This document shows positions 1-46,739 of a stretch of DNA of 64,000 nucleotides, piece after piece (the first letter of the stretch is position 1; every line of letters begins with the position of its first letter). The stretch lies in assembly GCA_963930775.1 (NCBI GenBank), contig OZ005706.1, positions 1,178,001-1,242,000 of the forward strand. The letters run 5' to 3'. The notes below the pieces were generated by a model, which saw nothing but the letters and a program-made list of their open reading frames with translations, had not been told where the DNA came from and did not search any database. The stretch is from Cliona cf. orientalis. Its lineage: Eukaryota; Porifera; Demospongiae; Clionaida; Clionaidae. The position numbers and the translations under genes are program-made.

Positions 1-660
1 TGGAGAATTTCCCTCTGGTTCAATAAGTTTTTTTCCTGAAATTTGTTTATCAATGCACATGTTATCTTCTCTCCTTGTATACCTGTACACATATGATGTA
101 CACAGATGGCAGCTACTGTGAGCATGGACGAGAGATATTTGATGAAGAGGCTGAAGCCTCAGCAAAAGACAAAGCTAAGAAGCCAGTGAGCTCATGATTA
201 TTTAGTCAGAAAGGGCCTCTCCATCTTGGTGGTGGGGGGGGGGGGGGGGGGAGCTCATCTTTCTTCTCATAGACTACCCTCTTGAGTTGAACCCTCCTTC
301 TCCCCATCCCACCCCCCCCCACACACATATTATAGTATTGTACACAACAAGTTTGATATTACTTTATTATTGCCCATATAAAAGAATCATTTTTAGTCCC
401 AATTCTAATTATCCAGGGTATGCCAAAGCGTGTGGCGAAACCTACCTCCAACATCAAACATATGTTGCTAAACGCCAGTAGCAGCAGCAAGAAAAAGAAA
501 CAGGTATGTATGAGGAGGGTAAGAAGAAGGAGGGGTGTGGATGGTCACATGGTTGTGTTTGATTTGAAGCATCATAATAATGTTATTGTATGTATCACAG
601 GAGAAAGTATCACTGGAAGGAGACGAGCTCTTGAATGATCTTCTAAGTCATCCGCTAAAG
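1..660 (+). pseudogene. POLA1: P0: POLA1 exons 4-6 fragment
   Basis: Exon 4 at 106-185 and exon 5 at 417-503 are in frame with good splice sites. Exon 6 starts at 601, but a 9-nt deletion removes its last codons and the gtaagt donor (CTTCTA runs straight into agtcat). Intron 4 contains a poly-G run (231-251). The copy begins outside the window. After about 675 the sequence changes to an unrelated short tandem repeat. Confidence 0.85.
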
Positions 661-714
661 AAAGGTACTGGGGGTGTGATATATGGCATTCCAACACTGA
701 CAAAATTGGCAAGC

Positions 715-905
715 TCAAATATATGGTCAAACTTGAGTCAGATATATGGTCAAACTCAAATATGTGGTCAAAATTGTTGCCTATATATGGTCAAAGCCAA
801 ATATATGATCAAATTTTATATGATCAAACTCAAATACATGGTCAAACGAAAGTTATGGTCATTTTTCCCATATATGGTCAAACATGCAGCAAATATATGG
901 TCAAA
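715..905. repeat. Imperfect ATATGGTCAAA minisatellite
   Basis: About ten copies of atatatggtcaaa spaced 16-21 bp apart. It creates overlapping short ORFs that are not genes. Confidence 0.85.
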
Positions 906-1157
906 ATTCAAGAAAATCCCCTTACATAATAGTCACGGATATGACGTATCTATTAGTTAATTGTACCGACGTGACGTCAACAGAATCCGCGTTTGCGAAT
1001 AAAATTCGCGATCGCGCGCACAAACGTACACTCACGATCCTTACCTTATGTAGTCTCGTTCACGGACCGGCCCCCTTTAGGGCGGAGTCTGGGGACTTGA
1101 TCATTTCGCTCCGCTCCTACGTGGGAGGCCTCGAGGGCTGGTGCGCGAGACTAGGTA

Positions 1158-1489
1158 CAATCGGACATTGTATTGTATGGCAAAGCAGTATGGTAAGCAT
1201 GAATGAAACTACTAGCTATTCATGTACTATAATATATCCTTCTGCACCTGGTGTGTCTTACCTTAGTCTCGAAACCAGACCGCTCCCACTGCAGCGTTCA
1301 GTTCATCCTGAAAGAACTGAACGCTGCGGTGGGAGCGGTCTGGTTTCGAGACTAGTCTTACCTGGGCTAGCCTTATCCCCAGGCCCTCTCTCGATCTCCC
1401 AGTATTTATTATGAAAGATAGAGAGAGGGCCTGGGGACACGGCTAGCTCAGCTAATTTCATTCATACTGTACCTTACAATGTCCGATTG
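1158..1489. repeat. Nested foldback with two hairpins
   Basis: Outer arms caatcggacattgta and complement. Inside, hairpin 1 (1265-1304 with 1314-1353) has 40-bp arms with one mismatch and a 9-nt loop. Hairpin 2 (about 1373-1444) has ccccaggccctctctc arms. No ORF of interest. Confidence 0.85.
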
Positions 1490-2270: not shown

Positions 2271-2279
2271 GTTCATTTA

Positions 2280-2810
2280 ATGACTAAACAAGACATAAGT
2301 GACTCAAATGCTGATATCTTGGTAAGAGTTGAGCCTGAGGGGTACAATGATGGTGTCATCTATACAATCTATAACACGACAAATGGATCTGACTACTGCA
2401 GTAAGTTTATCTGCTATCTTATTTTAATATAATATTATTAAGCCTTACTTGGAATCTCACATAGCTCAAAAATATGTACCAATACCGGCCAAGTACATAG
2501 AGAGTGAAATCAGTCAACGTATAAATGGAACTTTGTTGACTGTTAAGTGGACAGGGCAGAATCACAGCGATGGCTACATTGTTATTGTGGGGGACAGTTG
2601 CACAGCTCAGAGGCCATGTTTAATCGTTAAAACTACTGTATGTCTGTGAAGAGTGGAATGGATGTATTAAATTTGTGTTCAAGATCTCATGCTGAGTGTG
2701 TGTGTGTGAGTGCATTTGAATTATTCACTGAATTTTATGTCTTCATACAGCTACAGACAAAAGTTAAGATCAAATTTTTTACCAATAATTTATTTTCTAC
2801 ACTAGCCAAG
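2280..2810 (+). pseudogene. Inverted receptor exons 6-8
   Basis: On the plus strand, opposite to R1: exon 6 lacking its 5' end (from 2280 to 2400, SDSNADILVRVEPEGYNDGV), exon 7 (2465-2637, QKYVPIPAKYIESEIS) and exon 8 (2757-2810). Splice sites of exons 7 and 8 are intact. The 5' side is cut by the 1716-2270 repeat. The 3' side joins a reversed POLA1 intron about 10 bases after exon 8. Reversed, this block has the same POLA1-then-receptor junction layout seen at 20663 and 33.9 kb. Confidence 0.8.
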
Positions 2811-2928
2811 GTAAGCTGATGTAGCATTAATGTAGGTACATTGATATAAACCCCAGGTTATAATATAGCAGCATAACCAATATGCATGCATGACGCCATC
2901 ATTAAAATTAGCAGTACGGATATATTAC

Positions 2929-3055: not shown

Positions 3056-4019
3056 TTTAAAACTTTTGAAAGTAGCTAAACCTAGGCACATGCACTCCTT
3101 TCAAGCTGGGAGTTTGGCCTGGGCAGGAGGTCAACAAACATGAATGATTTACCAGAGTTGTAAAGGATGATCCAAATCCTTCGGGATAGTCTCCAGTCAA
3201 TCCCAGCCTGTCCAGTATAGTCTATAAAATAAATTATTATGATCAGCTAGCTCACTGCAAATCTGTAATTATAGCGAGTACTTACTAATCTGTTTGTGCA
3301 GTGATTTTCTCGCGATAGATAGTAATTATTTAAGAGAGGATTTCCAGAAGCTATGTCTAGTCTGTAAATGGCTTTATGGAAAAAAAAGATAGAGTATACA
3401 TAATAATAATATTATGATATTATAGCCAAGAATGTATATGTACGTACCACAGGAAAAATTCACAAAACACAACCATTGCATTACCAAAAAGAGTAACGTT
3501 GTGTTGTGGAAATGTTTTATTGTAGCTATAATATCAAACTCACAGTTATTTCTGTGATCCCTGAGTGTTTCAATGTAATACTTGCGGTTATAAGTATCAT
3601 GACACCTTGGACTAGCCATCATCACCAGTTCAGTAATTGGAGATTCGCTATTGAAAGCACCATTACTAGGGCAGTTTCGTGGAACATTAGCTGAATAAAG
3701 AAAGAATGGGACCAACTTAAATTATTAGCTATAATACATGTGTGACTCATGATCAAAGTCATAATAGCTGTTAATGAACATAAGCAATGCATACACAGCA
3801 GGAATAGATTAGATCTAATCTACTTCTGATACACAGTTAGCTATACTCTTATATGTTAAAAGTATAGACTACCCGTACAATACTGTGTGTTATTATGATG
3901 AGCTCGAGCCCTTCCCATTTTAATAATTATTGCATTGTGTATAATAGTTATTCATCATTGTACATACCGCTATTTTGTAGATTCCATTCTTCCAGTGCTC
4001 GTGGATTCTAAATAGGTTA

Positions 4020-5900
4020 AAAAAAAAAAGATTCTGCTTCATGGACCAGCAAAGAATAATCCATTATCAATGCTGGGGGGGGGGGGGGGGGGGGGGAGCC
4101 ACTTATTCATCACTATAGGGATTAACCATTGCTAGCGCTATTTGCGTCCAGTTACTCTCACATTGCACACGGCATGTCAGCTACAGCAATGTTGATAAGC
4201 ATTATTATTGTGGGGAAAAGATTGATAAACCTATATAGCTATAACAGGCTCACTAGAGTACATACTCCGTATGACATCCTATTGGACGATACTTCATTTT
4301 TCTGAATTTTAGTCTACCAGAAAATGTAGAATTTTAGCTTCATATTGATATGCTATGTTTATGTAGTAGCTATATTATTGTAATGGGTGCAAACAATTGC
4401 TCAGATACATACAACTTAATACAAAATTTAATTAAATGTGTGCATTTTCCGAAAAACGAATAATATTATATCTACCTGCGTGTATAAAATGCTTATTTCA
4501 GAAAAGTAAATTGCTACTAGGGATGTAACAAGTCTATAAGCCCTTACTATAATGTGCTACAAACACCAAACTTGTACCACGGGCTTCAGCAGAGATATAA
4601 TAGCATTACACCGCAAAGTGTTGGGTTGTAACCACTTCTGGTATTGAAGGGCTTCATGTTGCTCACTTTTCCAGGGCGTTTTATGCTTTTAGGGTAACGA
4701 CAAGCCCCGAGTTGTTTAGAAGCAATAAAGAATTTAAAGTGCATACACTTTCTATGTAAGCGTGTTTTACATAAAAATCTTCCCATATAAACAGAGGCGT
4801 AGGAAGACGATTTGGTAAATGGGTGCTCTGATGCCTATGTTTACACTAATCTTAAAATACTTCAGAGCAAAGTATGACATTGTGTGTGTTCCACTCAAAT
4901 TTCATGGGTGCACCCATCCTTCCTAAGCCAGTGATAAAGTAACAAATGTAAACACTGGGAATACTTTACTTGTGACGTAAAATCTTCCCATGGTTAGAAC
5001 ATGGCAGAACTAACGTTAAATCTCCCCATGATTAACCCAAGGGAGAAGTCACGTAGAACCTTCCCATGATAGAATAATGGCAATGTTATTCCTACTTTTA
5101 CGTAAAGATATAAATCATAATGACCCATAAAACACTGTACACTTTACGATACCGGCGCAGATGGAACGCCTCATTTAATAATCGCGATGATGCTATAATA
5201 TTAATACAGTCATCAGCGCGATCGCTTACAGCCATCATCAAAGATGTTCAATGGATTCTCACTACGCTTCGTGCAATTGCTTTATGGAACATCATTCATA
5301 CGAGGTCAGGGTCGATACGTCGAAGATTATGGCCTAGCAGCACATGACAGTCGCACGCATGCGCGAACACAACTAAGTGGGTGTGGCCACGACCGCAACG
5401 AGCTAGCTTGGTTTTGCTACTTATGTCTCGATCATAATATATATAGCTCAAATAGTCGAAGATCAGTCCTGAAAAACGAGTCTACCGTGTCACTGCCACC
5501 AAGAGGTGTCGCTACAAAATAAATAAAAGCCGCCCTCGAATAAGAGCCGCCTTCGATTAGTGAAGGCTGAAATTACTTAATTTGCAAATACTTACTACCT
5601 GGAAGCGGATTTTGAAATTGGAACTATTTTTCGTAGTATTAGATCAAATCACAGTCTTTCTATTCTCGGAAATCCAGATGAACTTATTCTAACTCTTTCT
5701 AGTAGCTACTATTAAATATAAATAGTAGCCGCGGCTACTATTCGAATAAATACGGTATGTAGCAAAATTTAATAGGCATGCACATATTAAACTTGAATTT
5801 AGCTGTGTGCTACTATTAAACATTAATTTTTTCAACCACTGCATAGTCCTACTAAATCTTTCATGCATCGATCCGTAGCTACGTTGCACCCACATGCTCA
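4020..5900. other. R1 intron 1
   Basis: No gene seen. Contains a poly-G run (4075-4096), the 4793 MITE, a repeated aaaatcttccc motif (4770-5070) and TE-like gccgccctcgaataagagcc sequence (5530-5560). Short ORFs near 5120-5520 have no recognisable domain. Confidence 0.5.
4793..4935. mobile_element. Short MITE, GGCGTAGGAAG family, copy 1
   Basis: Contains AGGCGTAGGAAGACGATTTG at one end and CTTCCTAAGCCAGTG at the other. About 75% similar to 56918-57078. Confidence 0.6.
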
Positions 5901-6217
5901 GAGAAAACACATTATCATACCATATTCAGTCCGACTCACCTTGCCATAAAGATGATATTTCGAAACATCAATTGAAGAGCATTCACCCGCAGTAGGACAA
6001 TAGAATTTGTACGGCAGATTCTCATTGTTTGCTGCTACAGGCAGCGTACAAAACGATAGAATAAATAATAATTGTTGAGGATTCGCAACCATATTATGCG
6101 TCGTCTGATTCAATACGATCGACTGGACTAACAGAGATACGCGAGCACTAGCAGTAGGCAATAAACGTTCGGCTACGCAATTCCTCCGTTTATTATTTTA
6201 GTATAAAGCATCCGGCC

Positions 6218-9721: not shown

Positions 9722-10592
9722 CATAATAAAACACAAATAGAATGACTCGAACTGATGGATCCCCATCACCGTAGCTGCAACCGTCTCAATATCATTGTTG
9801 TCATTATCATCACCCTAGCCTGTGCTACTGCCCCGATGTCTTCAATTGATCCTCTACATAGTGGCATTGAGAGAAAATTCTTTCTCTTAAAGGATCGTAC
9901 TTTGAATCTGTTCAGCTGGTATGAAACTCCTTAGCAATTTATTTTATGTGGTTAAAACATAATTATAATGAAAAACTTGACCACATGATGCGTGCTATAT
10001 TAAGCTTTATTAATTTTATTGACGGGATTACGTCAGCCAAGAGAATGCGTGAAGTCTGGCCAGCGGTACTTGTCGGAGAAAGTAGCTCTTGGCTTTAAAT
10101 GTATTCGCTGGATACAGGCATCAGATACTCTATATACATACCGATTTTCAAGTCTCAGAAAGGCTCCAGCTCCATTGAGGCCCTGAATTTTCTCATAATA
10201 ATTATTACCTAAGAGATTACACCATAGGTTTCATCATAATTACACCATAATTACCTCATAACCATATAAAAGTAAATTGCTACTGGGGATGTAATGAAAA
10301 TCTTAGACTACATCCTCGTCCTTCATGAAAAGCATTCACTGCGCCTATTGTACACCGCCATTATCGACCTTGGACACATTGACAAACTGTGCATTCTCCG
10401 TACACTTGGGGCGTGCAGCTTGAGCCGGTTGACCCGGACGTACAGAGTGAGGACGTCGCCATTGCAGTGGCGAGTTCAAGCAGCTGCAGCTGGCATGCGC
10501 ACTGTACTAATGATTGACATACAGCTAGGGAGATGATGACACACACACACACGTTAACACAAATAATATTATAATACACACAATACAATCAT
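9722..10592. other. Junction between P1 and the R2 3' end
   Basis: After POLA1 exon 7 is lost at about 9721 there is unrecognised sequence, then the inverted repeat copy C (9950-10295), then about 300 bp of unique sequence to the first SEFIR-exon duplicate. The ORF at 10361-10588 (minus) has no recognisable domain. Confidence 0.5.
9950..10295. repeat. Dispersed repeat, copy C, inverted and partial
   Basis: The reverse complement of the left half of copies A and B: agtaaattgctactgggga at the right end and the aggctccagc...gaggccctgaattttctc block. The left part is degraded. Confidence 0.7.
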
Positions 10593-11390
10593 AACTTTAT
10601 GCACACACCACACACACAAAATTGTTTGGTATCATGATAATATTATTTATTGTAATGAATACGAGATAAAATTCTCATTCCGATGAAGGTAATGACATGG
10701 AGTGTGAGGGAATTCCCCTCACGAATCTTACAATGTCCTCAACATTGTCCATCGAGAATTGCCGAAGATCAGCTTGAAGATATTTCGTCGGAATATACGA
10801 CTTGTCTGCCGGATCGATAAGTATGATGGCGTACTTAGACAAACACTCATTTTGTTGGACGGGTAACTTTATGCATACACCACACACACAAAATTGTTCG
10901 GTATCACGATAATATTATGATAAAATTCTCGTTCTGATGAAGGTAATGACATGGAGTGTGAGGGAATTCCCCTCATGAATCCTACAATGTCCTCAACATT
11001 GTCCATCGAGAATTGCCGAGGATCAGCTTGAAGATATTTCGTCGGAATATACGACTTGTCTGCCGGATCGATAAGTATGATGGCGTACTTAGACAAACAC
11101 TCATTTTGTTGGACGGGTAACTTTATGCACACACCACACACACAAAATTGTTTGGTATCACGATAATATTATTTATTGTAATGAATACGAGATAAAATTC
11201 TCATTCTGATGAAGGTAATGACATGGAGTGTGAGGGAATTCCCCTCACGAATCTTACAATGTCCTCAACATTGTCCACCGAGAATTGCCGAAGATCAGCT
11301 TGAAGATATTTCGTCGGAATATACGACTTGTCTGCCGGATCGATAAGTATAATGGCGTACTTAGACAAACACTCATTTTGTTGGACGGGT
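10593..11390 (-). repeat. Three tandem partial copies of the SEFIR terminal exon
   Basis: Units start at 10593, 10865 and 11119 and precede the true exon end at 11391; lengths are 272, 254 and 272 bp. Each carries the last 60 or so codons of R2 exon 11 (NECLSKYAIILIDP to SMSLPSSE and stop) plus the short 3' flank. Units 1 and 3 keep the AATAAA; unit 2 has lost about 18 bp that included it. All reading frames stay open. None has a visible acceptor, so they are more likely a downstream tandem duplication than functional alternative exons. Confidence 0.85.
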
Positions 11391-11443
11391 AACTTTATGC
11401 ACACACCACACACACAAAATTGTTTGGTATCACGATAATATTA

Positions 11444-11449
11444 TTTATT
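11444..11449 (-). terminator. Poly(A) signal of R2
   Basis: AATAAA on the minus strand about 25 nt after the SEFIR stop codon. It is repeated in tandem units 1 and 3 further downstream. Confidence 0.5.
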
Positions 11450-11472
11450 GTAATGAATACGAGATAAAATTC

Positions 11473-11966
11473 TCATTCTGATGAAGGTAATGACATGGAG
11501 TGTGAGGGAATTCCCCTCACGAATCTTACAATGTCCTCAACATTGTCCACCGAGAATTGCCGAGGATCAGCTTGAAGGTATTTCGTCGGAATATACGACT
11601 TGTCTGTCGGATCGATAAGTATGATGGCGTACTTAGACAAACACTCATTCTGTTGGACAGACGCGTGTACCAAATGTTTCAACGATGGCACCAGGGGCAA
11701 CGAGTGTGTACCGCCTTCTCTGTTCTCCCAGTCGTTTTTGAACTCTTTATTGCAGATGCACAGCACGGCGGTTGCCATGGCGATCTCGTACTCCAGCCAC
11801 TGCGAGGGACTCTCCTTGATGCACGCAAAGTCATGTGACTGAACCTTAAACCCATACGACTGCAGCTCGGGTATGAATTGGTGACGGATCAACTCTTGGT
11901 CTTTTTCGGGCGTAGAAGGAGAGTAGACGACTAACACATGTACAACCGGATCCTTTCGATGAGAAT
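11473..11966 (-). CDS. R2 exon 11: SEFIR signalling domain and C terminus
   Basis: The exon starts after a cacag acceptor in phase 1 and reads HVLVVYSPSTPEKDQELIR, a SEFIR box-1 pattern (hydrophobic strand, then YSP). It continues into SPSQWLEYEIAMATAVLCIC, the conserved Trp, acidic residue and Ala-x-x-V strand followed by Cys. It ends about 70 residues later with SMSLPSSE and a stop. A minus-strand AATAAA lies at 11449-11444, close behind the stop. A TIR domain is the main alternative, but the box-1 YSP favours SEFIR. Confidence 0.8.
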
Positions 11967-14900
11967 CTGTGTATTGAAAAGAGGCACAACAACATTAAAT
12001 TTACAGAATTATCAATGCCTTTTCCAAGTTCACACCACCCCCCCCACCCCCCTGCCCCCCCCCAAAAGCAGGGAATAGGTGCAAAATGTGCTTCAGAGCA
12101 TTTAGACAGATTAAAATTCATAGACGAGACCATGAGTTTTCATATTCGTGGTTCAAAGTTTGAGTACTACAATCATGTATTGGCATTGATCGATACATAT
12201 TGATGCAAATGCAGCTTTCTGTTTCACTGGGAGGTAGACATGAATAATATTACAATAATTATGATATGCTATACCTTGACTCAAACCAGAGTGATCCTTG
12301 AAGAGGGGCGTGGTAGATTCAACAGAGGTGGGAGTGAATATGTGGCTTTCCTGACCAGAACTCCCCAACAGCTTGCCAGATTCTTGCGATGAGCTACTGT
12401 GCACAATCACCTCCAGCGCAGGCGGGTGGATAGAGCTATCCTTGAGGTGGTGGGAAATGGACAACTGCTTACTCAACTTGGAAGTAGAGGCACTGTTGAA
12501 CACTCCACACCTTTTCTTTACTATCAGTAGTGATAGTACCACCGTGGCCAGCACAAAGACGATGGATACCACTGGTACCAGTACCGTGACTATGATGATC
12601 CGGTCTACATAAATGACAAGATATATTATACTCTCACTAATATTATTATAATACTCTTGATTACAGGAAATGAGATCATTCAGTCTGTCATCTACAATAA
12701 TTGCAATTATTGGGGCAAGCCTGAATGAGCCCCACACTAATCAGTACTACGAGAAAATCGCTGTACTTATGTATGCTTGTATGTATGTAGCGGTTCATCT
12801 CGTTCTAATTCATGGGGGGTTGGGAACACCTATATAGGGAAATAATTTTATATGGGCATGCAGAATGGGTCGAAACTAGAGATTAATTTTGACCTGAAAG
12901 AATTTTGATTCACGCATTACAATTAAAGTTATGGCCCTTTGAAGTTTTCCCATATTATGTTTGTATAGGAAGCCATGCATTTGCACTGTTTTCACCCACG
13001 CGCACATAAATATGACGACCATTACCCACTTTGGTCAAAATTGAAGTTTAGGCTGCCTGCTTGCATTGTATGGGTCTATAATGCATCCAGCTCAACTATG
13101 TGGTGGTTTCTGGACTGTTTTTTTCTGCTTAGTGTGTCCGCTTCTTGAAAAAAAAGCAAACTCTAATAATTAAAATTCATGGGGGGTTTGGGAGCACTTG
13201 GGGGGACAATTTTTACATGGGCACGCAGAATGGGTCAAAACTAGAGATTTGACCAGACAGATTTTTGATTCACACCTTACAATTTCAGGTTCTTCCAGCA
13301 ATGAACTCCATTTCGATCTGGGCGGAATGCAACAATCGTGCGATCGATCAATTGGCCACGCCCCTTAAATGATACCGCGAACGCGCATGCGTTCTTGATG
13401 CAGCTATTTTAGTTAAGCGCATCTCGCTAACGTTAGGTGCACTTCGCTATTCAAGTAAGCGTAGGTTTTCTTGATGTGGAGATATAAGCGCATGCGCTTA
13501 ATAGCGGGAAAATACGGTACTTGTACCACCATACAAAGATAGTAGAGGGAGCAACCCTTTACTATGCTGTGAGCGAAGGCTCGCCCCCTCAATGGTTTAC
13601 ATCACCCTAGTTATTATCATTATCGGAAATGTGGTACCAGCCAGTACATGACTACAAGTTGCTACAATCATACTTGGAATAACAATAGTGGTTCCATTTG
13701 AGGGCTCAGTTGTAGCTATAGCTGTAGGTAGGTTTGCTCCTAGTGTTATGGAGTTTGTTGCCATCATTGAATTTTTGATCTGGGTGTGCGTGGGATAAGG
13801 AGTAGTTGATGAAATACTGCCTTCAGTTGTATTGCAGTCAGACATTGGAGTAGCAATAGTGGTTCCATTTGAGGGCTCTATCTTAGCTTTCATGATTAAT
13901 GTTGGATCATGATAGTATTGACTGTCATCACAACATTTGTCTCTACAACCTTTAAAGAGGTGTACTAGTTCATACCCAATTTCAGATTTCGTACAGTTTG
14001 TGGTGATGATGTTGTATATTCTGATCTGTTGATGCATGAAAATCATGTTCAGACATCATATTAAGTGTATGGCAGCTAGCTATAGATATATAACCATCAG
14101 CTCACCTTCTTGGCTAGTGTAGAAAATAAATTATTGGTCAAAAATTTGATCTTAACTTTTGTCTGTAGGCATACAATTTCAGTGAATAATGTAAATGCAC
14201 ACACACACATTCCACAATTCACTAACATACAGTATTTTTAATGATTGAACATGGCCTCTGAGCTGTGCAACTGTCCCCCACAACAACAATGTAACCATCG
14301 CTGTGATTCTGCCCTGTCCACTCGACAGTCAACCAAGGTCCATCTACATATTGACTGATTTCACTCTCTATGTATTCGGCCGGTATTGGTACATATTTTT
14401 GAGCTGTGTGAGGTTCAAAGCATTAATACATGCAACAGCAGATTTAGTGCTGTACAAAACTTACTGCAGAAATCAGTTCCATTTGTCGTGTTATAGACAG
14501 TATAGATGACGCCATCATTGTATCCCACAGGTTCACCTCTAACCAAGACATCTGCATCTGAGTCACTTTCGTATTGTTTAATCATTTTCGAGGTAACCTG
14601 CAATAATAATATCATGATACTTAGCAAACTATATCATAAATTTCAATATTCAGTTTCCCCATATGTATGCTATACAGGCCCATAGCCAGACTTTTTAAAG
14701 GGGGGTGCACATGTGTATGGGTTTAATTACTATAATGTACTCGCAACAAGGGTTGGGATGTTAACTCACAGCTGCTAAGTCACATGACAGTCACAGAAGT
14801 GACTATTATAATAATATGCATGTATTGGTCATAACTGCTTATTGATTGAGTTGTGATGTTAATTAGCCGCACTAAGTGTGGTTTTGTCAAGCTGATAGAG

Positions 14901-17900
14901 AGGATAGCATGCAGCCTCAGTCTATTGCTCATGCAATTAAGAACTTCTGTGAATGACATACAATTATTAGGCTGAAAAAGGGGGGTGCACGTGCACCCCC
15001 CTGCACCCCCCCTGCCTACGGGCCTGCTATAGCTAATGATAATGAGGCATGAAACTGAGCTCAAAAAGCGGGGTGTAATGTTCTCTTCAATAGCATAGAT
15101 CAATTGTGAATCAATAGTAGAATGAATCATACAGGATAAATACAAGATTAAATAGCTAAGTAATACAGGAAGTAAATATAGGAAATGACATACAAATAAT
15201 ACATTATTCATACCATTACATCACATAGCCTACATTATCTCCCCAGTAGCAATTTACTTTTCTGTGGTTATAAGGTAATTATGGTGTAATTATGATGAAA
15301 CCTATGGTGTAATCTCTTAGGTAATCTATGAGGTAATTATGAGAAAATTCAGGGCCTCGCTGGAGCCTTTCTGGGACTTGAAAATCAGTGAATATGTAGA
15401 GTATCTTACGCGTGTATCCAGCGAATACATTACAAGCTGAGCGCTACTTTCTCTGAGAAGTACTGTTGGTTGAACTTCACGTGTTTTCTTGGCTTACGTA
15501 ATGCCGTGGATAATAAAGCTAGCCTTGCGCTATATATAGCACTCATTGTCACAAGGGGCTGTCCCGCGCGCGACTGCAGCAGCGTGACCAACCTGAAGTT
15601 CGGAAGGAATACTGTACTGTCGAGTTCGTCTCTGTGATTGAAGCATCGAAACTTGTCGCTGTCAAGGCTGAGAGTCGATCTTAGACGCCATCTCCATGAT
15701 TTCTGGGGCGAGTATCGATCGATGTGTACGCATTCTATTGACAACCTTTTACTACATGCACATTACACTATGCAGCTACTGGGGAGATGGTCAAGGGTTC
15801 ATAACAATAATACCGTAGAATCCCGCGATTACGCCCCCCCTCGCGCATAAGCCCCCCCTGCGTTTTTAGCTCAAGTTCCTGCATAGGTACTTTTGTCTCG
15901 CGTATAAGCCCCCCCTCCCTGACTGTAAAATGGAGCCCATAAATCAACAAAAACAGCAGCTACAGCTAGCAAACTAGCTATTTGTGTCATATTATGCCTT
16001 ACTTTGTCGTTTTTCTCGAGTTTTGCCAACCAAACAGCCAGAGAAAGTACAGAGATCGCGCGCCCACGTGGCATTCGACGGTCGGTAATGGTCGTCACAC
16101 GGAAATGTAAGGATCCCGCGTATAAGCCCCCTCCCCACTTTTGCCCAATCCTAGCATGCACAAAGGGGGGGCGTAATCGCGGGATTCTACGGTAATATTA
16201 TACACAACTCAACATAACTATGTATGCAATTGTCTCAACTCGATCAGCCCAGGCCACCACTGGAAAACTTATTCAGACTGTGATACACTTTTAATCTGCA
16301 TGAGTTGCTGATATTCTTAATATATATCAGTGGTATAAGATGTTATTTTGGAGTGGAGTGGGGGGGGGGGGGGGGGGGGGGCAATACATAGCTGTGGCAG
16401 GCCACCACAAATCTAAGGGGTATGCTTCCCCAGGAAATACTATACCTGCATGACACCAACATACAGGATACACCTACAGTACATTACTATTGTATACTCC
16501 ATATAGCACACTTAATTGCAAACTACATAAGACAAACACAAAGTCCAAAATGGTCCCTTTACTCACAACTATACTCCCATTCAATGACTGTAAACAAAAG
16601 TATACTCTTGCTGTAACCTATAATAACCTAACTGCACCCAAAATGAATAATATTATGGGCAACCATTGCAGAAAATCCATTTGTACACATTCAAGGCTAT
16701 ATATAACATGCCACAGAGAATGGATAAACTTCCAGCTGGGAGTTGGCCAGCAGATACTTACCAGAGCAGTAAAAGATGATCCGGATCCTTCGGGATAGTC
16801 TCCGGTCAACCTATGCTTGTCTATTACAGTCTATAATAATAATAAAAAAGAAGTATTAATGCGAGCCACTGAACCTTGCAGTTAGCCTCGTCCCTATAAC
16901 TCTTAATGTTATAGTAACCTCACCCCCTCCCTTTACCCCCTACTCTGCGTCGGGAGTACATTACTAGGAGTGTGCAACACATACAATAGTACAAACATCT
17001 CTTTCCATCACAACCACCCTTGTACATGGGCCTGAATATCATTAGAAGGTACTTAAGTTGCAACCACTGAGTTACATTCTGTATAGCTGCAGCTGCAGCT
17101 AGTTACTGATAGGACAGTGCAGACATAACCTTCATGGCTTCATGGTTTGAGTGGTTGCATATTAATAATATTCTGTGATGTCAAATCTGGAAAGAGATGT
17201 TTACACTACTATTATGTGCGTTGCACACTCCTAGTAATGTACTCCTGTCTGCGTGCAACACTGAAATGTGTACAGCTAATGCCATGCAACGTGCCGAGGG
17301 TTTTGTGCTCGAAAGAGCTCTAATTTGTAAATTGTAGCTATAGTATAATAATATTATACATAATTAACACTTACTAATTTATTTGTGCAGTGGTTATCTC
17401 GCGTTAGATAGTAGTTGTCGAATACGGGATTTCCAGAAGCTATGACTAGTCTGTAAATGTCTTTATGGAGAGAAAAAAAAAAGATCGAGTATATAGCTAT
17501 ACGTAATATTATGATACCCAACGTAATATATACCACAGGAGAAATTCATAAGCACAAAATTAAAATTAATGAACACCATCGGTGCCAAACCCTCGGCGCC
17601 ATGATATTTATTGTAAGTAGTGACATACTCTAAAGGCCGGAATAGTCACAGGAAGTAAATTTAGTCTACAATACGTACATGCTGTAGAGATCGAGAGTAA
17701 CCACAAGAATGCAGTAACATGGATTACATGCAATTACGTAATAGTACATGTGCATGCCAGATCAATCAGTAGATCTATAGTACAAAGTGATATCAATCAA
17801 GATTTTTCATTAAAGGTAGCAGCTCTATAGCTATATATCAAACTCACAGTTATTTTTGTGATTCCTAAGAGTTTCAGTGAAATATCTGGGGTCATAGCTC

Positions 17901-21832: not shown

Positions 21833-22720
21833 ATATCAGTGGTATAAGATGTTGTTTTGGAGTGGGGGGGGGGGGCCCAAGGCCGTTGGAGCCTGTAAGG
21901 CTGGTAAAGCTATGGCCTTACCAGTTTTTGAGCCTTCGTTTAGAAAAATTTGACATCGATCCTCAGTTCACGATCTAGCAGCTAAGCTAGCATACACTCT
22001 TATTCGATGTGTGCAGTCTCTCTGCATTCTTGTGAGTAGGTGGGGTCAATGTGCAGCATGCCAAGCATATCACACATGTGCAAAACTTGTTGGGGGTGTG
22101 CCTTCTGATAGTATACCGCACATGCCTCACCACATACATTTTGCTTCCGATGGCCTTGGGGGGGGGGGGGGGGGTGGGCTGGGAATGGTAATCAAATCAA
22201 TGCATGGCTGTGGCAGGCTATGCCCACCAGAAATCTAAGGGGATCTGGGGGCATGCTCCCCAGGATAGCATGCCCCCCAGGAAAATTTTGATTTTCACAT
22301 CATCTTAGAGCGATTCTGGTGCATTCTGAGCACTAATGTGACCTGCTATGAGAAAGGGACCATTCATGGTAGTATGAAACACGGCCAATTTTTATCATGA
22401 CAATGGCCAACTTGCTTTCTGATGTAGTAGTGGCATACGTGTATCAGTGCATGGACACCACCAACATACCCTACAGTACATTACTATTGTATACTCTATA
22501 TGTCACACTTAATTGCAAGCTACATACAACAAACACACAAAGTCCAAAATGGTCCCTTTTCTCACAACTATACTCCCATTCAATGACTGTAAACAAGAGT
22601 ATACTCTTGCTGTAACCTGTAATAACCTAACTGCACCCAAAATGATGATGGGGCAACCATTGCAGAAAATCCATTTGTACACATTCAAGGTATGCCACAG
22701 AGAATGGATGAATTCATTGT
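21833..22720. repeat. CAGTGGTATAAGAT repeat family, R3 copy
   Basis: Longer version of the 16326 repeat with about 450 bp more interior and two poly-G runs. Apparent ORFs here are shadows. Confidence 0.6.
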
Positions 22721-25200: not shown

Positions 25201-25362
25201 TAATAATATGAAATTTATCATTGTACATACATTGATTCCAGTCTTCCAGTGCTTGTGGATTCTAAAAGGGTTAAAGAGAAATATAGATTCTGCTTCATGG
25301 ACCAGCAAAGAATAATTAAACCAACCCTTACATTTAATATGCTGGGGTAGCCTACTCATCAT

Positions 25363-25858
25363 AAGGCCAGTGTTAGTTGTAAACGTGTTTCTGGTCACCC
25401 GCCCGCATGCTATTTTGGAGGCCGCCTATTTTGGCCATTATTGTCATTATTTGGCACTGCGCATGCTCAGTTCAATTACCAAAATTAATGTCACCATCCT
25501 GTCTGTGGTTTGTCCAGGAAATGTTCAAATTGTACAGGATATGCTGAGGTAAAATAATGGAATAATGAATAATGATAACCCAGGGCCGTAGGAGCCGGTT
25601 AGGCTTGTCAGGCCATGGCCTGACCACTTTTCTGATCGATCTTTCGGTAAAGGTCGTTGGTACTATGTGCACCTTGCATACCCCAGCAAAGCAATAATCG
25701 TATTATGTGGTTACAATCTCTTTACCAATGACGGGCCTGACCACTCAAAATTTGCTTCCTACGGCCCTGTAACCGCCCGCCCGCATGGCTAAGTGAGCTC
25801 TGATGTGACCAGAAACACGTTTACAAAAAACTGTGGTCTCATCTGGAATAGCCCAACC
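25363..25858. mobile_element. Inverted-repeat insertion in R3 intron 1
   Basis: Contains TGTAAACGTGTTTCTGGTCAC and its inverse (25379 and 25825). It is flanked by about 30-bp direct repeats of receptor intron sequence (ending gtagcctactcatcat). R2 has a single copy of that flank. Confidence 0.7.
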
Positions 25859-26038
25859 CTATTAAATATGCTGGGGTAGCCTACTCATCATAATAGGGAT
25901 TCACCTTTGAGTCATGACGTTATTCTTAATAGCTAATAATAATAATCCTGTGCATGTTAATTCAGTCAGACTCACCTCATCATAAAGATGATATTTCGAG
26001 ATATCAACTGAAGAACACTCACCCGCTGCAGTAGGACG

Positions 26039-26515
26039 GTCTGGGGACGAGACTAGTCACCCGCCCGCATGATATTTTGAAAAGGCAATTTATGAGGACT
26101 ATAATGATATTCATAGTAAAAATGATGTAAAATGACGTATTGAGCACGTGATACTCTCGATCTCGAGATCGAGCTCGATCTTGAGCTCATTGCCTGCTGC
26201 ACATTCCATGATGGTGATCGAATCTGTGGTTTGTTATTCTGCATTAAATTTTACTGTTAAACTGCCTGTGTACTTGTATAGCCAAGGGCTTATAAGCCCT
26301 TGGTACAGCTCATAGCATGAGCTGCCTGTGATGAATATGATCTGACAGGCTGCTCGAGGTTTGCTGACTATGCATCTGTGGTATGATTTAAGTACTTCCT
26401 CTTCCTGTCTTAATTCAATTAGTCATAGTCCCATAGTCCTAACCACCCGCCCGCCCGCATGTACTTGAGACAACTGGTGTGACCAGAAACTAATGATTGA
26501 CTTGGAGTGGCCTAA
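26039..26515. mobile_element. Insertion replacing part of R3 signal-peptide exon
   Basis: Shares tcacccgcccgcatg and gtgaccagaaac motifs with the 25363 element, so it is probably the same family. It contains an ATCTCGAGATCGAGCTCGAT-type self-complementary core and a CCAAGGGCTTATAAGCCC palindrome. Confidence 0.7.
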
Positions 26516-26581
26516 TAACGTTGCTGCAGTCGGCATACAAAGCAAGAGTGCTATAATAAATTGCAGGTGATTTGCAACCAT

Positions 26582-26813
26582 AATTAAGTATGCATCACTG
26601 ATTCGATTCAACAAGACTGGCAGAGATAGCGAACTCACGGTAGGCAAATTAGACTTGCCAAATGGTCCCGGACAGCCCCTCAGTTGGACTGCATGTGATG
26701 AATTGCAATTTGACGACCCTGTACCGCTTTGTTTTGGCGGGAAAAGAATTTCACTGCCCTGGTTAATAGCTAGATGAGGCTCGAGGGCACCGGAAAGTCA
26801 CGAAAGTACCGGT
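26582..26813. promoter_or_regulatory. Divergent promoter region R3/P3
   Basis: 232 bp between start codons; the shortest and apparently least altered version. The E2F-like site is at 26732-26745 and the tgacgaccctg motif is upstream of it. Only one arm of the R2/P2 palindrome is present here. Confidence 0.6.
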
Positions 26814-33864: not shown

Positions 33865-34290
33865 TCAATTAAAGCAAGCAAAAAAATTTAATTTCATTTT
33901 GACACATTTTTTTTTGTAGTGGCACTGCATGGGTTCGGGTTCGGATTCGGGTTTCATGACTGATGTTGGATCATGATAGTATTGGCTGTTATCACAACAT
34001 TCGTCTCTACAACCTTTAAAGAGGTGTGCTAGTTCATACCCAATTTCAGATTTTGTACAGTTTGTGGTGATGATGTTGTATATTCTGATCTGTTGATGCA
34101 TGAAAATCATGTTCAGACATCGTATTAAGTGTATGGCAGCTAGATATATAACCATCAGCTCACCTTCTTGGCTAGTGTAGAAAATAAATTATTGGTAAAA
34201 AATTTGATCTTAATTTTTGTCTGTAGCTGTATGAAAGTATACAATTCAGTGAATAATTAATTTAAATGCACACACACACACACACACACA

Positions 34291-34336
<46 letters not shown>

Positions 34337-37300
34337 CAGTATGAGACCTCAAATACAAATTTAATACATCCATTCCACACTTCACAGACATACAACGATT
34401 GAACATGGCCTCTGAGCTGTGCAACTGTCCCCCACAACAACAATGTAACCATCGCTGTGATCCCGCCCACTCCACTCAACAGTCAACCAATTGCAAGTTC
34501 CATCTACAGTTTGACTGATTTCACTCTTTATGTATTCGGCCGGTATTGGTACATATTTTTGAGCTGTGTGAGATTCCAAATATTAATACATATGACGGCA
34601 GATTTAGTACAAAACTTACTGCAGAAATCAGTTCCATTTGTCTTGTTATAGACGGTATAGATGACACCATCATTGTATCCCACAGGCTCAACTCTTACCA
34701 ATACATCAGCATTTGAGTCACTTATGCCTTGTTCAATCATTAAATTTTTAGAGGTAACCTGCAATAATTATGACACTTATATATCTGATATAACCGTAGT
34801 AATAATTATGGTACTATATATATGTTATAAATTTCAATAAGGAATCTGGAATATTCAGTCCCCCATATGCATGCATGCTATAGCTAGCTAATGATAATGA
34901 TCCAGAAAGGAGGCATGAAATTGAGATTTCTTCATGCAGCTCAAAAAGTGGGGGTTCTGCCTTCTGACAAATGTAGCTTCAACATTAGTTTTTTTTCATC
35001 CCAACTCAGCCCGCCACCGCATGGAAACCTTATAATTCAGATAGTGACAAACTTTTAATACAGATAGCAAACCTAGGGCTAAGGCCCACCCCTTTCAAGC
35101 TGGGAGTTGATCTGGGCAGGAGATTATCAAACTTGAATGACGTACCAGAGTTGTAAAAGATGATCCAGATCCTTCGGGATAATCTCCAATCAACCCCTCC
35201 CTGTCTCGTATGGTCTATAATTATAATATTATAATAGGGATCACACGATCAACTAGCTCACTGCAAATCTGTAATTATAGCGAATACTTACTGATTTGCT
35301 TGTACAGTGCTTTCGTCGCATTAGATAGTATGCATGTAAGTGAGGATTTCCAGCAGCTATGTCTAGTCTGTAAATGGCTTTAAAGATAGATATGGCATAG
35401 CCAATAATTATTGTGTATATCACAGGAAGAAAATCACAACACAACCATTGCATTATACCAAACAAATAATTAGCCGCAAGGATTCCGGCTTCATAATATC
35501 GAACTCACAGTTATTTGTGTGATCCCTGAGTGTTTCAATGTAATACTTGCGGTAATAACTATCACGACACCTTGGACTAGCCATCATCACCAGTTCAGTA
35601 ATTGGAGATTCGTTATTGAAAGCACCATTACTAGGGCAGTTTCGTGGAGCATCAACTGAATGAAGAATTAAAGAATCAAATATTATTGTGACTGATGATC
35701 AGACATAATAATTATGATATTCATAGATCTTGTACACTACTGTTATAACCAAGGGCTTATCTATAAGCCCTTGTTATAACTGAATCATCAGTGACCTAAT
35801 ATGATGTATAGCAGTGGTGTAAGAACCAGGGGGGGGGGGGGGGGGACTGGGGGGTCTGCCCCTGGTTCAAAATATTATAGGGGCCCCCTCCACAGTGAAA
35901 TTCCTCTACCCTGTATATACATCTACCCTAAAGACTTGGACCAACAAGTGTGCATACTTGATTACGTTTTACAATACATAATAATAATATTATAATCACA
36001 CTGAGTTTATCCATTCTCTGTGGCATATTACAATGCATAAACTTAATTACATACATGTAGCCTTACACATGGATTTTCTGCAATGGCTGCATCACTATTA
36101 TTGTATTTTGGGTGAGAGAAAGTCTCCAAAATTAACCAGCTATGAGAAAAGGGACTGTGCATGTTTGTTGTATGTAGCTTGCTGGAGTGTACAATAATAA
36201 TGTACTGTAGGTGTATCCATGCACTCAGAGTCTATGTTGGTGTCTATATAGTATAGCTACACTACTCACTAATAATAGTTATCTGACAGTAATTGGGGTG
36301 CATGAGATGCATGGTTGAATGCACCCCAATTACTGTCAGATAACTATTTTGTTGGTAGTTGATCTCTGTTCGTCATTAGCCCACTTTATGATGACCCAAC
36401 CCCTTCCCATAGCCGGCAAATTGCCTATAAAAACTTTGGATTGCTAGGCAACTACCAACAACTACAGGTGTAGAAAGCATGTTGGACAATGTCATGATAT
36501 AAATTGATCTTGTTTCGTACTACCACGAATGGTCCCTTTTCTCATAGCAGGTCACATTTATGCTCACGCAGAATGCACCAGAATGAAAATGTAAAAATTT
36601 TCCTGGGGGAGTATGCCCCCAGACCCCCTAGTTTTCCCACCAAAGCTATAATTATATACTTGATTACCATTCTCGGCCGCTCCCCCCCCCCCCCCCCAAC
36701 TCCAAAACAAAATCTTATGCCACTGTATATATTACAGCTATACAAGTATACTCGTATATGTGTGTTAATACGTAGAAATTAAAACGAATCGATCAATACA
36801 GTCTCACAAGCTTGAGCCAGACCTTCCCATCATTACATAATAATATTATTATGAAGATCTGGCTCGCGAGACTCTAGTATCAGTATAGAGCTGCAATAGG
36901 ATAAAACAATGTAGCCACAATAAAAGGTATTGTACATACGGCTATTTTGTAGATTCCATTCTTCCAGTGCTCGTGGATTCTAAAAAGGTTAAAGAGAAAT
37001 ACAGATTTTGTTTGCAGAAATACAAAGCATGCATGGCTAGTGCTATTTATGTCACGCTACTCTCACGTTGCACACTGCCTGTTAGTGATCATAATATCGT
37101 GGGGAAAAGATCGACACTTGAAACCCATTTATTTATAAACTAGAGCTCTCAAACGCATACTCCATATGACATCTTTGATGACGCTGCTCAACTTGAATAA
37201 CAAAGGGTTTTACAATTGGGGAGACTCTAGCTAGCTATGTAGAGCTTTGTGACAATTAAGTGAGTGCAAAATTTTGAAGCCATGCCCACAAATAATTAAA

Positions 37301-37916
37301 CCACGCCCCAAACTGCACCGTTCCATGTTTGTGAGCAACTCTATTGGCTGGTGCGGCTTATTGCCTATCGCAGGACTGTGGCTTGCGCTCATACCTAGAG
37401 CGATGAACTTGCTGAATCAGCACCAGATGTTTTGCGTGCAATTTGCATACCAATCGCTGTGGTGGGCACGTGTGTACGCGAATATGCCATGATATGATTT
37501 TGAGTACTGTACGTGGTCATGGTCAAATGGAAGGCACAAAAAGTGGGGCAGCTCAGCCTTGAGCCGCCCCTGCCACCCCGCCTCCGACGGCCCTAAATAA
37601 GAATGCATGAAAAAGATAGGTTTGGCTCGGTGTGCACGCTCATGAGACTATTTATTATTAAAACGATGCTGTGTAACTGAGGAATGCACAGGATCAGCCT
37701 GATTTATTACAGTGTATAATTTGTGCCATGATATTATTCAGTCAGACTCACCTCATTGTAAAGATGATATTTCGAGACATCAACTGAAGAACACTCACCT
37801 GCAGTAGGACAACAGAATTTGTATGGTAGATTCGCATTGTTTGTTGCTGCAGTCAGCATAGAAAGCAAGATACAAAGCAAGAGTGGTATAATAAATTGCA
37901 GCTGATTCACAACCAT
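33865..37916 (-). CDS. R4: truncated receptor, possible secreted ectodomain of about 360 aa
   Basis: Paralogue of R2 exons 1-9. Minus-strand exons: 37916-37752, 36979-36940, 35655-35509, 35362-35292, 35214-35146, 34758-34620, 34563-34394, 34220-34164, then 34089 to a stop at 33865. Every phase matches and no internal stop was seen. Exon 1 encodes MVVNQLQFIIPLLL, a signal peptide. Exon 9 keeps TTNCTKSEIGYELAHLFKGC and the CCD motif, then diverges after DPTSVMK into an unrelated Lys-rich tail ending FFACFN. There is no transmembrane or SEFIR exon before POLA1 fragment P3. A soluble decoy is possible; a recent pseudogene that has not yet decayed is the alternative. Confidence 0.6.
34267..34333. 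repeat. CA microsatellite in R4 intron 7
   Basis: About 30 CA units with two CG interruptions. Shorter CA tracts occupy the same intron in R2 and R3. Confidence 0.9.
36000..36735. repeat. CAGTGGTATAAGAT repeat family, R4 copy (inverted)
   Basis: Opposite orientation to the R2 and R3 copies. Includes the 36275 hairpin and a poly-C run near 36681-36698. Confidence 0.6.
36275..36347. repeat. Perfect 28-bp hairpin between R4 exons 2 and 3
   Basis: Arms 36275-36302 and 36320-36347 are exact complements with a 17-nt spacer. A second pair (ttgttggtagttg and its complement) follows at 36351 and 36449. Confidence 0.85.
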
Positions 37917-38050
37917 ATTATTATGCATCATCTGATTCAACATGATTTGCAGAGATAGCGGACTGTAGGCAAAGTTAATAAGATTTGAAGGAAGTTCCAA
38001 ATGGTCCCAGGTTTCTCACAGCTGGTCTTTTTAAGTATTGGGCCAGTACA

Positions 38051-38301
38051 GTTAATAAGAATACACCCCTGTTGAGGAACACTTTTCCAGTTCCCCTGAA
38101 GACAAGTAGCTAATCGGATAAATTTCCCCCAGAAGACTTAATTAAAATGGAGGCAGTAACCCCCAAGACATCATTAAAATGCACCATTTTACCCCCAGAA
38201 CATCATTAAAATAGCCTCAACACCCCCCAAGACTTCATCAAATCGAGCTACCCCCTTAGGACACAATTATCGTTCCTCAACAGGGGTGTATCTTTGTTAA
38301 C
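38051..38301. mobile_element. MITE between R4 and POLA1
   Basis: Ends GTTAATAAGAATACACCCCT and its near-complement, followed by GTTGAGGAAC in both arms. 251 bp. The interior has repeated ccccaagacttcattaaa-like motifs. Confidence 0.8.
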
Positions 38302-38574
38302 TGGAATAGCCCATTAATAGCTAGACACATAGTTTTTGTGGCCCCTCAGTCGTGAACCGGGGGCTGGCCCACCAGACTACTCCGGCCAAGTGGCCCGCGA
38401 TTCAGCGACTCTGATCGCGCTATCTATGCATTATGGGTCATCAGGTAGCTAGTATAGTATAGCGTGTATGTGGTAAATTGCAATTTGACGACCCTGCACC
38501 GAATATCAAAGCGCGTTTTGTTTTGGCGGGAAAAGATCAGGCTGAGGGCGCCGGGCACTGGGAAGTCACGAAGT
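38302..38574. promoter_or_regulatory. Divergent promoter region R4/POLA1 with E2F-like site
   Basis: Lies between the R4 start (37916, minus) and the POLA1 start (38575, plus). TTTTGGCGGGAAAA at 38521-38534 matches the E2F/DP consensus and sits about 40 bp upstream of the POLA1 ATG. The preceding tgacgaccctg motif is also conserved in the other modules. E2F control of S-phase genes including POLA1 is well known. No TATA box was recognised. A 251-bp inverted-repeat element (38051-38301) lies on the R4 side. Confidence 0.65.
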
Positions 38575-40675
38575 ATGTCAACTCAATCTCCAGGTATGCA
38601 GTATGCAATCAGTTGGGGGTACTTTTAAATCTCTCTCTCATTCTGACACTCTCTCTCTCGATCTCTCATACCCACACAAATAGAAATCCCCTCAGATGGG
38701 ATAGACTCAATAGCTGTTCGTCGTAAAAGGAGAGAAAAGAAGAAAGGTGGCGCCAGTTCAGCTCTAGAAAAGATCAAGTAAGTGGATATAATTATTATTA
38801 CACCTTACCGAAACTTATTGAAACCCCGCCCCTGGCCCCTCCTCTTATCACTATAGGTATAATAGTCAAGTCCCTCCCCTCCCCTCTCCTCCGTAGACAT
38901 AGCCACACTCTCTTTTCTTACTGACTCCTCCCTCCCCCCCCCCCCCCCCCCCCATAGGCGTAGCCGTGAGACTGGTCTCCATGAAGAGTCAGAGCTTGAA
39001 GAACATGAAGCTCTCTTTGACTACGTTGAGGAGGCGGAGTATGCTCGCATCGTTCAGCAGAGGCAGGAGGAAGGATTCATCCTGGATGATGGTAAAGGAG
39101 AGAGAGAGCATGGTCCATGAAGTATACAATATGGGAGGGGGGTTTACTTTGGTCCACATACTATTAAAGCGTACTATGTTTCGTGGTTTGCTAGTCACAA
39201 GAGGTAGTGTGGGGGAGATTTCCCTAGAAATGCCCCAAGATTAATGTGGCCCCTTTATTGGTTTGTTGAAGGCTGTGGGAAATAGCTAGTAATTGTGTCC
39301 TGTTTTCTAGGAAAGTAGTAACTTTCAGTGGTTGTGTACTTCTCAGCAAACCTTACCCCAGCTGCTGAATAGTGTTATTCTTTTCCCCTGGTTAAATGCT
39401 GAAATTAAGTTTTTCCTTTAGTTCATTAATTTTATCAGTGCACATGTTATCTTCTCTTCCTGTACACCTGTACATGTATGATGTATATAGATGGCAGCTA
39501 CTGTGAGCATGGACGAGAGATATTTGACGAAGAGGCTGAAGCCTCGGCAAAAGACAAGAAAGGCAAAGCTAAGAAGCCAGTGAGCTCATGATTATTAGTG
39601 AGACTGGGAGCATTCTCTGGGGGGAGTAGAGGGGCAGGGGGGAAGCTCATCCTCCCCCCTCCCCCCAATGTACATACCGCACTCAAGTTTGATGTTACTT
39701 TATTATTGCCCCTACAAAAAGAATATTGTTAGTCCCAATTCTTATCCAGGGTATGCCAAAGCGCGTGGCGAAACCAACCTCCAACATCAAACACATGTTG
39801 CTGAATGCCGGTAGCAGCAGCAAGAAAAAGAAACAGGTATGTATGATAAGAGTAAGAAGAGGGAGGGAGGGAGGGAGGGGTGTGGTGGTCACATGGTTAT
39901 TGAAGCATCATAATAATAAATATTGTACTTATCACAGGAGAAAGTATCACTGGAAGGAGATGAACTCTTGAATGATCTTCTACTACAAGTAAGTCATCTA
40001 CTAAAGAAAGGTACTGATATATTTACCAACTTTTTTATGACATACAGGCCAAGCAGCCCAAGAGACCACACCCATCAGCCACACCCACCCACACCAGTTC
40101 AAGGTCAACGTCATTCACCCCACGTCTATCGTCCACGCCCCAAGCGCCACGCCCACACATGGCCAAGAAGATCCGCATCACCAAGTCACATGATGGACCC
40201 ACTATCAGTGCTGGCTCAGCAGCTATCAAAAGGTTCTCAAAATCTGCCGATGTCAGCAGTTTTCCGATAAAGCCACAGCAGTCTTCTAAAGACAAAGATG
40301 ACGAATACGAAGATGTTGGTGGAGATGACTTGGGAATGGACTGGGGAGGCTGTGATGATGACAACTGGGAAGATGGTGATGCTGGGGAGGGTGTGAGGGG
40401 TGGAGGTGGTGACAGTGTGAGGCCTAGTACTGCTGACGATGCGCGTGGTGAGGGAGTGGTGATGGCCGCCAAGAAGGAGGAGGGAGGGTATAAAGAAGAG
40501 GCAATGATGGAAGAAGAGAAGACTATGGTGTAAGTGCAAATGACTTGTTGCATAATTTAAATATTTGGCCATTGATGATTTATATGATTCATTTTCTACT
40601 CTTTCCAGACCTGAAGCAGCTGTTTCAGTGTCAGGGTGGGAGACAGTCAGAGATGAGCTGGAGGAGACAAAGACT
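38575..40675 (+). CDS. POLA1: POLA1 exons 1-8: N-terminal regulatory region
   Basis: Exon 2 carries a basic cluster, RRKRREKKK, likely a nuclear localisation signal. Exons 3-4 give the conserved acidic block ending [20 protein letters not shown]. Exon 5 has the [10 protein letters not shown] motif typical of the POLA1 N terminus. Exon 6 is a short acidic, leucine-rich peptide ([11 protein letters not shown]) in the place where yeast and animal Pol1 carry a Ctf4/WDHD1-binding box; that role is inferred. Exon 7 (40048-40529) is low complexity: Pro/Ser/Thr-rich first, then Asp/Glu/Gly-rich. Exon 8 has a short helical [10 protein letters not shown] segment. These are the exons that were repeatedly copied upstream. 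Confidence 0.93.

Positions 40676-44270: not shown

Positions 44271-44316
<46 letters not shown>

Positions 44317-45392: not shown

Positions 45393-45425
<33 letters not shown>

Positions 45426-46688: not shown

Positions 46689-46739
<51 letters not shown>

Follow-up and report, generated by a model that had tools for sequence, protein, structure and literature searches.

The closest described system is the human RCCX module (STK19-C4-CYP21-TNX). According to the passages of PMC8362596 that deal with its structure, C4 has been duplicated together with truncated neighbors, STK19B and TNXA, and TNXA/TNXB chimeras arise; STK19B retains 914 bases of the 3' end, and TNXA is a truncated pseudogene. 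We analyzed 64,000 nucleotides of the sponge Cliona cf. orientalis (C18:1178001-1242000, contig OZ005706.1; hereafter the window, whose position p is C18 1178000+p), in which a receptor gene with a SEFIR domain (R, minus strand) and the 5' end of POLA1 (P, plus strand) lie head to head in tandem copies. As in those passages on RCCX, an immune gene has been duplicated in tandem with breakpoints inside its neighbors, leaving truncated neighbor copies and chimeras. This combination of an immune gene and truncated flanking copies in tandem is that of an RCCX-type modular duplication; the two loci work alike and are not homologous. In contrast to RCCX, the neighbor is a DNA polymerase gene whose promoter and 5' exons were copied, the receptor itself has been cut into tail-less forms, and neighbor exons have been captured in the receptor frame. 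An earlier note on this DNA regarded the layout as having no described counterpart, a view that the comparison does not support, human RCCX being of the same kind as far as those passages describe it (PMC8362596). The kind of layout is already known; what is new is the fusion of one receptor copy, R0, with POLA1 exons, and the candidate decoy receptors made by duplication breakpoints.

Probable tandem duplication of a receptor/POLA1 unit

Self-comparison by BLAST, of the window against itself and with the surrounding 224 kb, revealed collinear copies on both the R side and the P side. Example matches were 92.6% between 19420-20193 and 26690-27475, 97.2% between 20194-20662 and 27657-28118, 91.1% between 28056-29241 and 39446-40625, and 90.2% between 17262-18109 and 23133-23978 (E 0.0 in each case). 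The four R/P junctions inside the window, R1/P1 to R4/P4, are real, and their divergent ATG-to-ATG spacings are 1,760 bp (R1/P1), 298 bp (R2/P2), 233 bp (R3/P3) and 659 bp (R4/P4). Copies of POLA1 exon 3 stand at window positions -1208, 8165, 19918, 27175 and 38959. The earlier note had described four junctions and a fifth P (P0) as the product of repeated duplication of the head-to-head unit, and had suggested comparing the window with itself and searching to its left for more units. Its description is borne out by the collinear copies, with R and P sides self-similar at 90.2-97.2% in these examples, and by the five exon-3 positions. The leftward search found R0, the receptor partner of P0, directly beyond the left edge of the window and, 160 kb to the left, a further unit that is inverted and scrambled. 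With R0, the main array comprises five R/P junctions.

The best explanation, and in our judgment a probable one, is tandem duplication of a receptor/POLA1-5' segment, with further events at the left, POLA1 starts carried along as passengers, and capture of POLA1 exons by R0. The starting point would have been a cluster of SEFIR-receptor genes and POLA1 arranged head to head, with a short intergenic promoter between them. Tandem duplication of segments reaching from the stalk exon of the last receptor into the first exons of POLA1 would leave a full receptor with a cut POLA1 as the left product, a tail-less receptor with a whole POLA1 as the right product, and inner units cut on both sides. R2/P2 has a full tail and a cut P, R3/P3 is cut on both sides, and R4/P4 has a cut tail and a whole P, which fits this geometry. 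Also in its favor, the right ends on P differ among the collinear copies. At one duplication junction (20662..20663), exon 4 of P2 runs directly into the stalk exon of R3, and the two share little or no sequence at the join, suggesting that the tandem duplication may have proceeded by end joining. Because a tail and a cut P occur together in R0/P0, and R1/P1 contains an inversion, duplication does not suffice for the left half; R0/P0, R1/P1 and the R-1-type tail of R2 would also have required inversion and exchange among units. The POLA1 starts would be decaying passengers, and receptor copies would keep or acquire a signaling tail (R2), stay open without one (R4), or die (R1, R3). In R0, POLA1 exons 3 and 4 would have been captured in frame as a cytoplasmic linker from the membrane span to the SEFIR domain. 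Under this scheme a single type of mutation, the tandem duplication of a segment spanning a divergent pair, may yield signaling receptors, tail-less decoy candidates and a fusion of a receptor with a replication enzyme, here in an early-branching animal.

The closest partner of a copy changes by segment. Over the promoter and exons 1-3 of POLA1, the closest pairs are P2-P3 (distance 0.022) and P0-P1 (0.040). The closest pairs in receptor exon E2 are R0-R4 (0.027) and R2-R3 (0.059), in E3+E4 again R0-R4 (0.054) and R2-R3 (0.109), and in E1 R2-R4 (0.105), so that R4 has R0 as its nearest copy in E2 and E3+E4 and R2 in E1. These shifts make later exchange between units likely. A repeat element in both orientations (1711-2276, 15234-15802 and 10015-10296; 97% between two copies) lies near receptor breakpoints and is a possible partner in rearrangements.

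Sponges can be highly heterozygous, and the order of the array is known from the assembly alone; both facts would suit an assembly artefact in which alleles of one locus were stacked in tandem. We regard this as very improbable. The array lies on a single 7.76-Mb contig, and breakpoints, insertions and lesions differ from copy to copy, with segment distances from 2% to 29%. Moreover, if alleles had been stacked, further whole POLA1 genes would be expected, but genome-wide (216.8-Mb assembly, 149 contigs) the catalytic exon of POLA1 has one full copy, the sole other match being a 37-residue stretch at 54%.

Several observations do weigh against tandem duplication with passengers and capture, or against parts of it. 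Its simple form predicts a tail at the left end only, but R0 and R2 both have one, and all receptor copies are known as gene models from genome sequence alone. Among our selection estimates, which are pairwise counts with few changes each, the omega interval for the R0-R4 ectodomain reaches 1.48 and thus does not establish that R4 is constrained as a gene of its own. Exon 7 of P3 compared with P4 gave an omega of 0.24 (0.09-0.55), below expectation for a long-dead copy. The captured exon 4 of R0 differs from POLA1 by 7 changes in 27 codons (omega 0.55, 0.08-99), too few for selection on it to be judged, and the chimeric stretch of R0 no longer matches PF12254 in Pfam. Finally, by sequence methods the receptor ectodomain matched no Pfam family and no IL-17 receptor chain in PDB, showing no similarity to the fibronectin-III-like ectodomain of known IL-17 receptors, so that the label 'IL-17 receptor' derives solely from the SEFIR domain.

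Receptor copies and POLA1 fragments

The full receptor R2 (11473..19246, minus strand) was modeled in 10 exons encoding 660 aa (19246-19085, 18898-18868, 18000-17848, 17460-17375, 16830-16762, 14597-14465, 14403-14231, 14025-13674, 12604-12275 and 11966-11473). It consists of a signal peptide, ectodomain, Ser/Thr stalk, transmembrane span and SEFIR domain, in that order, with consistent phases and no internal stop; signal peptides and transmembrane spans were assigned by eye. Its SEFIR domain matched PF08357 with an E of 1.2e-7 as an exon and 1.4e-6 when spliced, and SEFIR scores exceeded the Pfam cut-off of 23 in both R2 (29.1 bits) and R0 (28.0 bits). Two PDB matches to the SEFIR exon (E 0.46 and 0.68) were taken as chance. 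Within the window, transmembrane and SEFIR exons occur in R2 only, and none of the 8 genome-wide Pfam SEFIR matches listed falls at R3 or R4. The 3' end of the R2 SEFIR region is itself present in four tandem copies of ~272 bp (10592..11658, minus strand; Tandem Repeats Finder and tblastn), three of them past the stop codon.

The R2 tail differs by 9.4% over 1,106 aligned bases from the R-1 tail at C18:1145413-1146527. Their SEFIR exons are separated by 9.0 synonymous versus 3.0 non-synonymous changes (omega 0.09, 0-0.27), and the transmembrane/juxtamembrane exon is far more diverged (synonymous divergence 0.42; omega 0.42, 0.25-0.66). The SEFIR domain of R0 is only 47-49% identical to that of R2. 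Thus, R2 combines an R0-like ectodomain with an R-1-type tail. Pfam found at least 8 SEFIR matches genome-wide, such counts being lower bounds, with 4 of them in the C18 cluster; a search with R2 as query added a fifth cluster tail at C18 1139465.

R4 (33865..37916, minus strand) is a tail-less ectodomain model of 8 exons and 346 aa with consistent phases (37916-37752, 36979-36940, 35655-35509, 35377-35292, 35214-35146, 34758-34620, 34563-34394 and 34089-33865). It ends in a truncated stalk exon without a transmembrane span or SEFIR domain, and no structural lesion was seen. Decoy receptors such as OPG and IL-13R alpha 2 retain the ectodomain and lack the signaling tail. R4 resembles them in this respect and differs in having been made by duplication breakpoints; from its sequence, it is a putative secreted decoy. 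A narrow open-access literature search for decoys made by duplication returned only unrelated papers.

The two remaining copies in the window are broken. R3 (20663..26584, minus strand) is a decayed tail-less copy whose stalk exon is cut at the P2 junction; a ~0.5-kb insertion splits its exon 1 (26584-26516 / 26035-25892), the E4 acceptor has changed from AG to CG, and the E5b acceptor is deleted. R1 (3100..6098, minus strand) has N-terminal exons E1-E4 and is broken because its downstream ectodomain exons are inverted, E5/E5b lying at 2275..2821 on the plus strand with minus-strand BLAST matches to R0, R2, R3 and R4. These models and lesions support the full, soluble-like and dead receptor forms that had been proposed for the array. 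A micro-exon of 31-40 nt with conserved splice sites is present in all five receptor copies. The ectodomain gave no sign of positive selection, omega being below 1 (0.58-0.78) in three of three pairs, compared with 0.09 in the SEFIR exon. The ectodomain search of PDB returned nine designed repeat proteins (E to 1.2e-7, no single stretch passing) and a globin (E 1.7), which we dismissed as artefacts.

The inverted unit (C18 1008754-1017786) contains receptor exons from E1 to the stalk and, after them, a hydrophobic segment and a stop codon; this copy may therefore be a membrane-anchored, tail-less form. Its POLA1 pieces (C18 1008792-1009218) have exons 3 and 4 out of order, and on that ground it was rejected as an ordinary head-to-head unit. 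A TPGAPRAPEAP-type repeat fills much of one of its introns.

P4 is the real POLA1 (38575..64000, plus strand, continuing to ~70,830 outside the window). Its exons 1-5 (38575-38593, 38696-38777, 38958-39091, 39491-39579 and 39750-39836, plus strand) match PF12254 when spliced (E 2e-14), the catalytic exon lies within 52317-52913 (plus strand), and the later exons were placed through the C-terminal end using a human POLA1 probe. Pfam and PDB matches, together with this probe, identified the PF12254 N-terminus, exonuclease-like, family B polymerase and C-terminal regions together in P4 only. The polymerase is therefore whole only in the rightmost unit, as the earlier note had it, but it extends beyond the window, with the last exon found near 70,830. 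Exon 7 of POLA1 occurs twice in the genome, once in P3 and once in P4. A weak POLA1-like match was also seen at C15:2615702 (E 0.11).

P0-P3 are all disabled POLA1 fragments. P0 (46..670, plus strand) holds exons 4-6 in the window and exons 1-3 just to its left (-1663 to -1129), where the ATG is lost and exon 3 has a 2-nt deletion. P1 (7796..9723, plus strand) reaches from the promoter through exons 1-6 and includes the beginning of exon 7. In its exon 2 one nucleotide is deleted and one inserted, and a stop falls between the two lesions; the open reading frame of exon 3 matches PF12254 (E 8e-9). P2 (19455..20662, plus strand) retains the promoter and intact exons 1-3, with exon 4 cut at 20662. 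P3 (26725..32488, plus strand) extends from the promoter through exons 1-7 and ends inside exon 8; it is open through exon 4, is frameshifted by a 7-nt deletion in exon 5, and is interrupted by insertions near 29241-30166 and 30240-32373. Inserted sequence in P3 includes a 224-aa open frame at 29352-30023 (minus strand), rich in KKKRRKRKRR and without a Pfam match, which is perhaps a mobile element; direct repeats of 146 bp (29371-29516 and 30021-30166) are 99% identical.

The 14-mer TTTTGGCGGGAAAA, which we take to resemble an E2F site, occurs at exactly four places when both strands of the 224 kb are searched, one in each promoter of P1-P4: 7801..7814 (R1/P1), 19462..19475 (R2/P2), 26732..26745 (R3/P3) and 38521..38534 (R4/P4 divergent promoter), all on the plus strand. 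The P0 copy is interrupted, and the 10 kb holding the inverted unit lack the 14-mer. Receptors and POLA1 starts may be under shared-promoter control; a narrow open-access literature search found no report of a bidirectional POLA1 promoter. Retention of the 14-mer in all four promoters would also be expected if the POLA1 fragments were kept for function, as receptor promoter or enhancer parts or as short N-terminal POLA1 peptides. The open frames of P2 (through exon 3) and P3 (through exon 4) point the same way, as do their low omegas relative to P4 (0.13 for P2 exons 1-3, 6 changes, interval 0-1.15; 0.13 for P3 exons 1-4, 9 changes, interval 0-0.50) and that of P3 exon 7 given above. Yet P0 has neither an ATG nor an intact 14-mer, P1 has its stop in exon 2, P3 its exon-5 frameshift and P2 its cut in exon 4, and the low omegas of P2 and P3 are common to the functional P4 branch and have wide intervals. 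We therefore consider retention for function unlikely, and the proposal that promoter and first exons were carried as passengers is supported.

Probable capture of POLA1 exons by R0

R0 lies left of the window at C18 about 1156598-1175697. In it, POLA1 exons 3 and 4 stand in frame, with the membrane span before them and the SEFIR domain after them. A single exon encodes the stalk and the membrane span and closes with a copy of POLA1 exon 3, whose original donor site it keeps; the last exon opens with POLA1 exon 4, likewise at the acceptor site of the polymerase gene, and continues into SEFIR. When spliced, the model has an open frame of 722 aa. BLAST matched R0 to POLA1 exon 3 over 89 bp (85%, E 6e-22) and 174 bp (75%, E 7e-28), and to exon 4 over 166 bp (88%, E 6e-54). 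The exon-3 copy carries an inserted stalk repeat and measures 230 nt, versus 134 nt in POLA1, both 2 mod 3. Because the captured pieces are on the receptor strand, they are inverted relative to P0-P4. The first intron of R0 spans 12 kb and holds a large tandem-repeat field at C18 about 1165300-1173200.

From its structure, the R0 fusion is probably expressed. The fusion is known from a gene model alone, a 3.4-kb intron with repeat-like open reading frames separates the two captured exons, and the captured sequence shows too few changes to judge selection and is unrecognized by PF12254. It could accordingly be a coincidence of the gene model, with the POLA1-derived stretches unused or the gene dead, and we hold this to be a considerable possibility, if somewhat short of even. 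Against it, both captured exons retain POLA1's donor or acceptor site and phase and stay open, sharing an open reading frame with stalk and transmembrane span upstream and SEFIR downstream. In addition, exon 3 has changed in length by a multiple of three overall, and P0, P1 and P3, unlike the captured exons, have lost frame. A narrow open-access literature search found no report of a receptor carrying POLA1 exons.

IL-17 context and other observations

SEFIR proteins have been reported from placozoans (PMC6321704) and ctenophores (PMC11797021), in the parts of these papers that concern them. The corresponding parts of an IL-17 survey (PMC8353272) report tandem IL-17 expansions in marine invertebrates, state that no IL-17 gene could be identified in the Amphimedon genome, and mention one Amphimedon IL-17 domain entry in Pfam. 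As in the mussel IL-17 receptors described there, the sponge receptor has a cytoplasmic SEFIR domain after its membrane span; unlike IL-17 receptors, its ectodomain has no Pfam or IL-17R match. The sponge genome also resembles those of mussel and sea urchin, as described in the same parts, in holding a large IL-17 ligand array (PMC8353272). IL-17 (PF06083) gave 49 matches genome-wide, 42 of them in a 227-kb stretch (C8:7789412-8016332) and one at C18 931540; matches are not genes, and some contain stops. Two IL-17 open reading frames exceeded the Pfam cut-off (E 3e-12 and 1e-11), one of them (L033) with a CPW motif. Open-access literature searches found no title on sponge IL-17. The locus indicates that a sponge has both a cluster of such receptors and a large array of IL-17 ligands, to be set against the Amphimedon statement in that part of the survey (PMC8353272).

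We speculate that R0 signals through a SEFIR domain tethered by an N-terminal piece of POLA1, that R4 and perhaps the inverted copy are decoys made in one step by duplication breakpoints, that duplicated cell-cycle (E2F-type) POLA1 promoters drive the copies, and that the receptors face the IL-17 array; all of these holding jointly is doubtful. If true, the sponge would be reshaping an IL-17-type receptor family by borrowing from an essential neighbor, POLA1.

Elsewhere in the assembly, the mitochondrial contig C149 carries a cox1 with 8 in-frame TGA codons, and 7 AGR codons are read as Arg under table 4. C149 also encodes atp9 (PF00137, E 1e-12), and an atp9 encoded in the mitochondrial DNA of an animal is a pointer to a sponge. 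As a bilaterian marker, let-7 (RF00027) had no match here and none in 14 controls either, so it carries no information; assignment to the sponges is based on the mitochondrial DNA. Two mitochondrial contigs are present in the assembly, cox1 being found on both C111 and C149.

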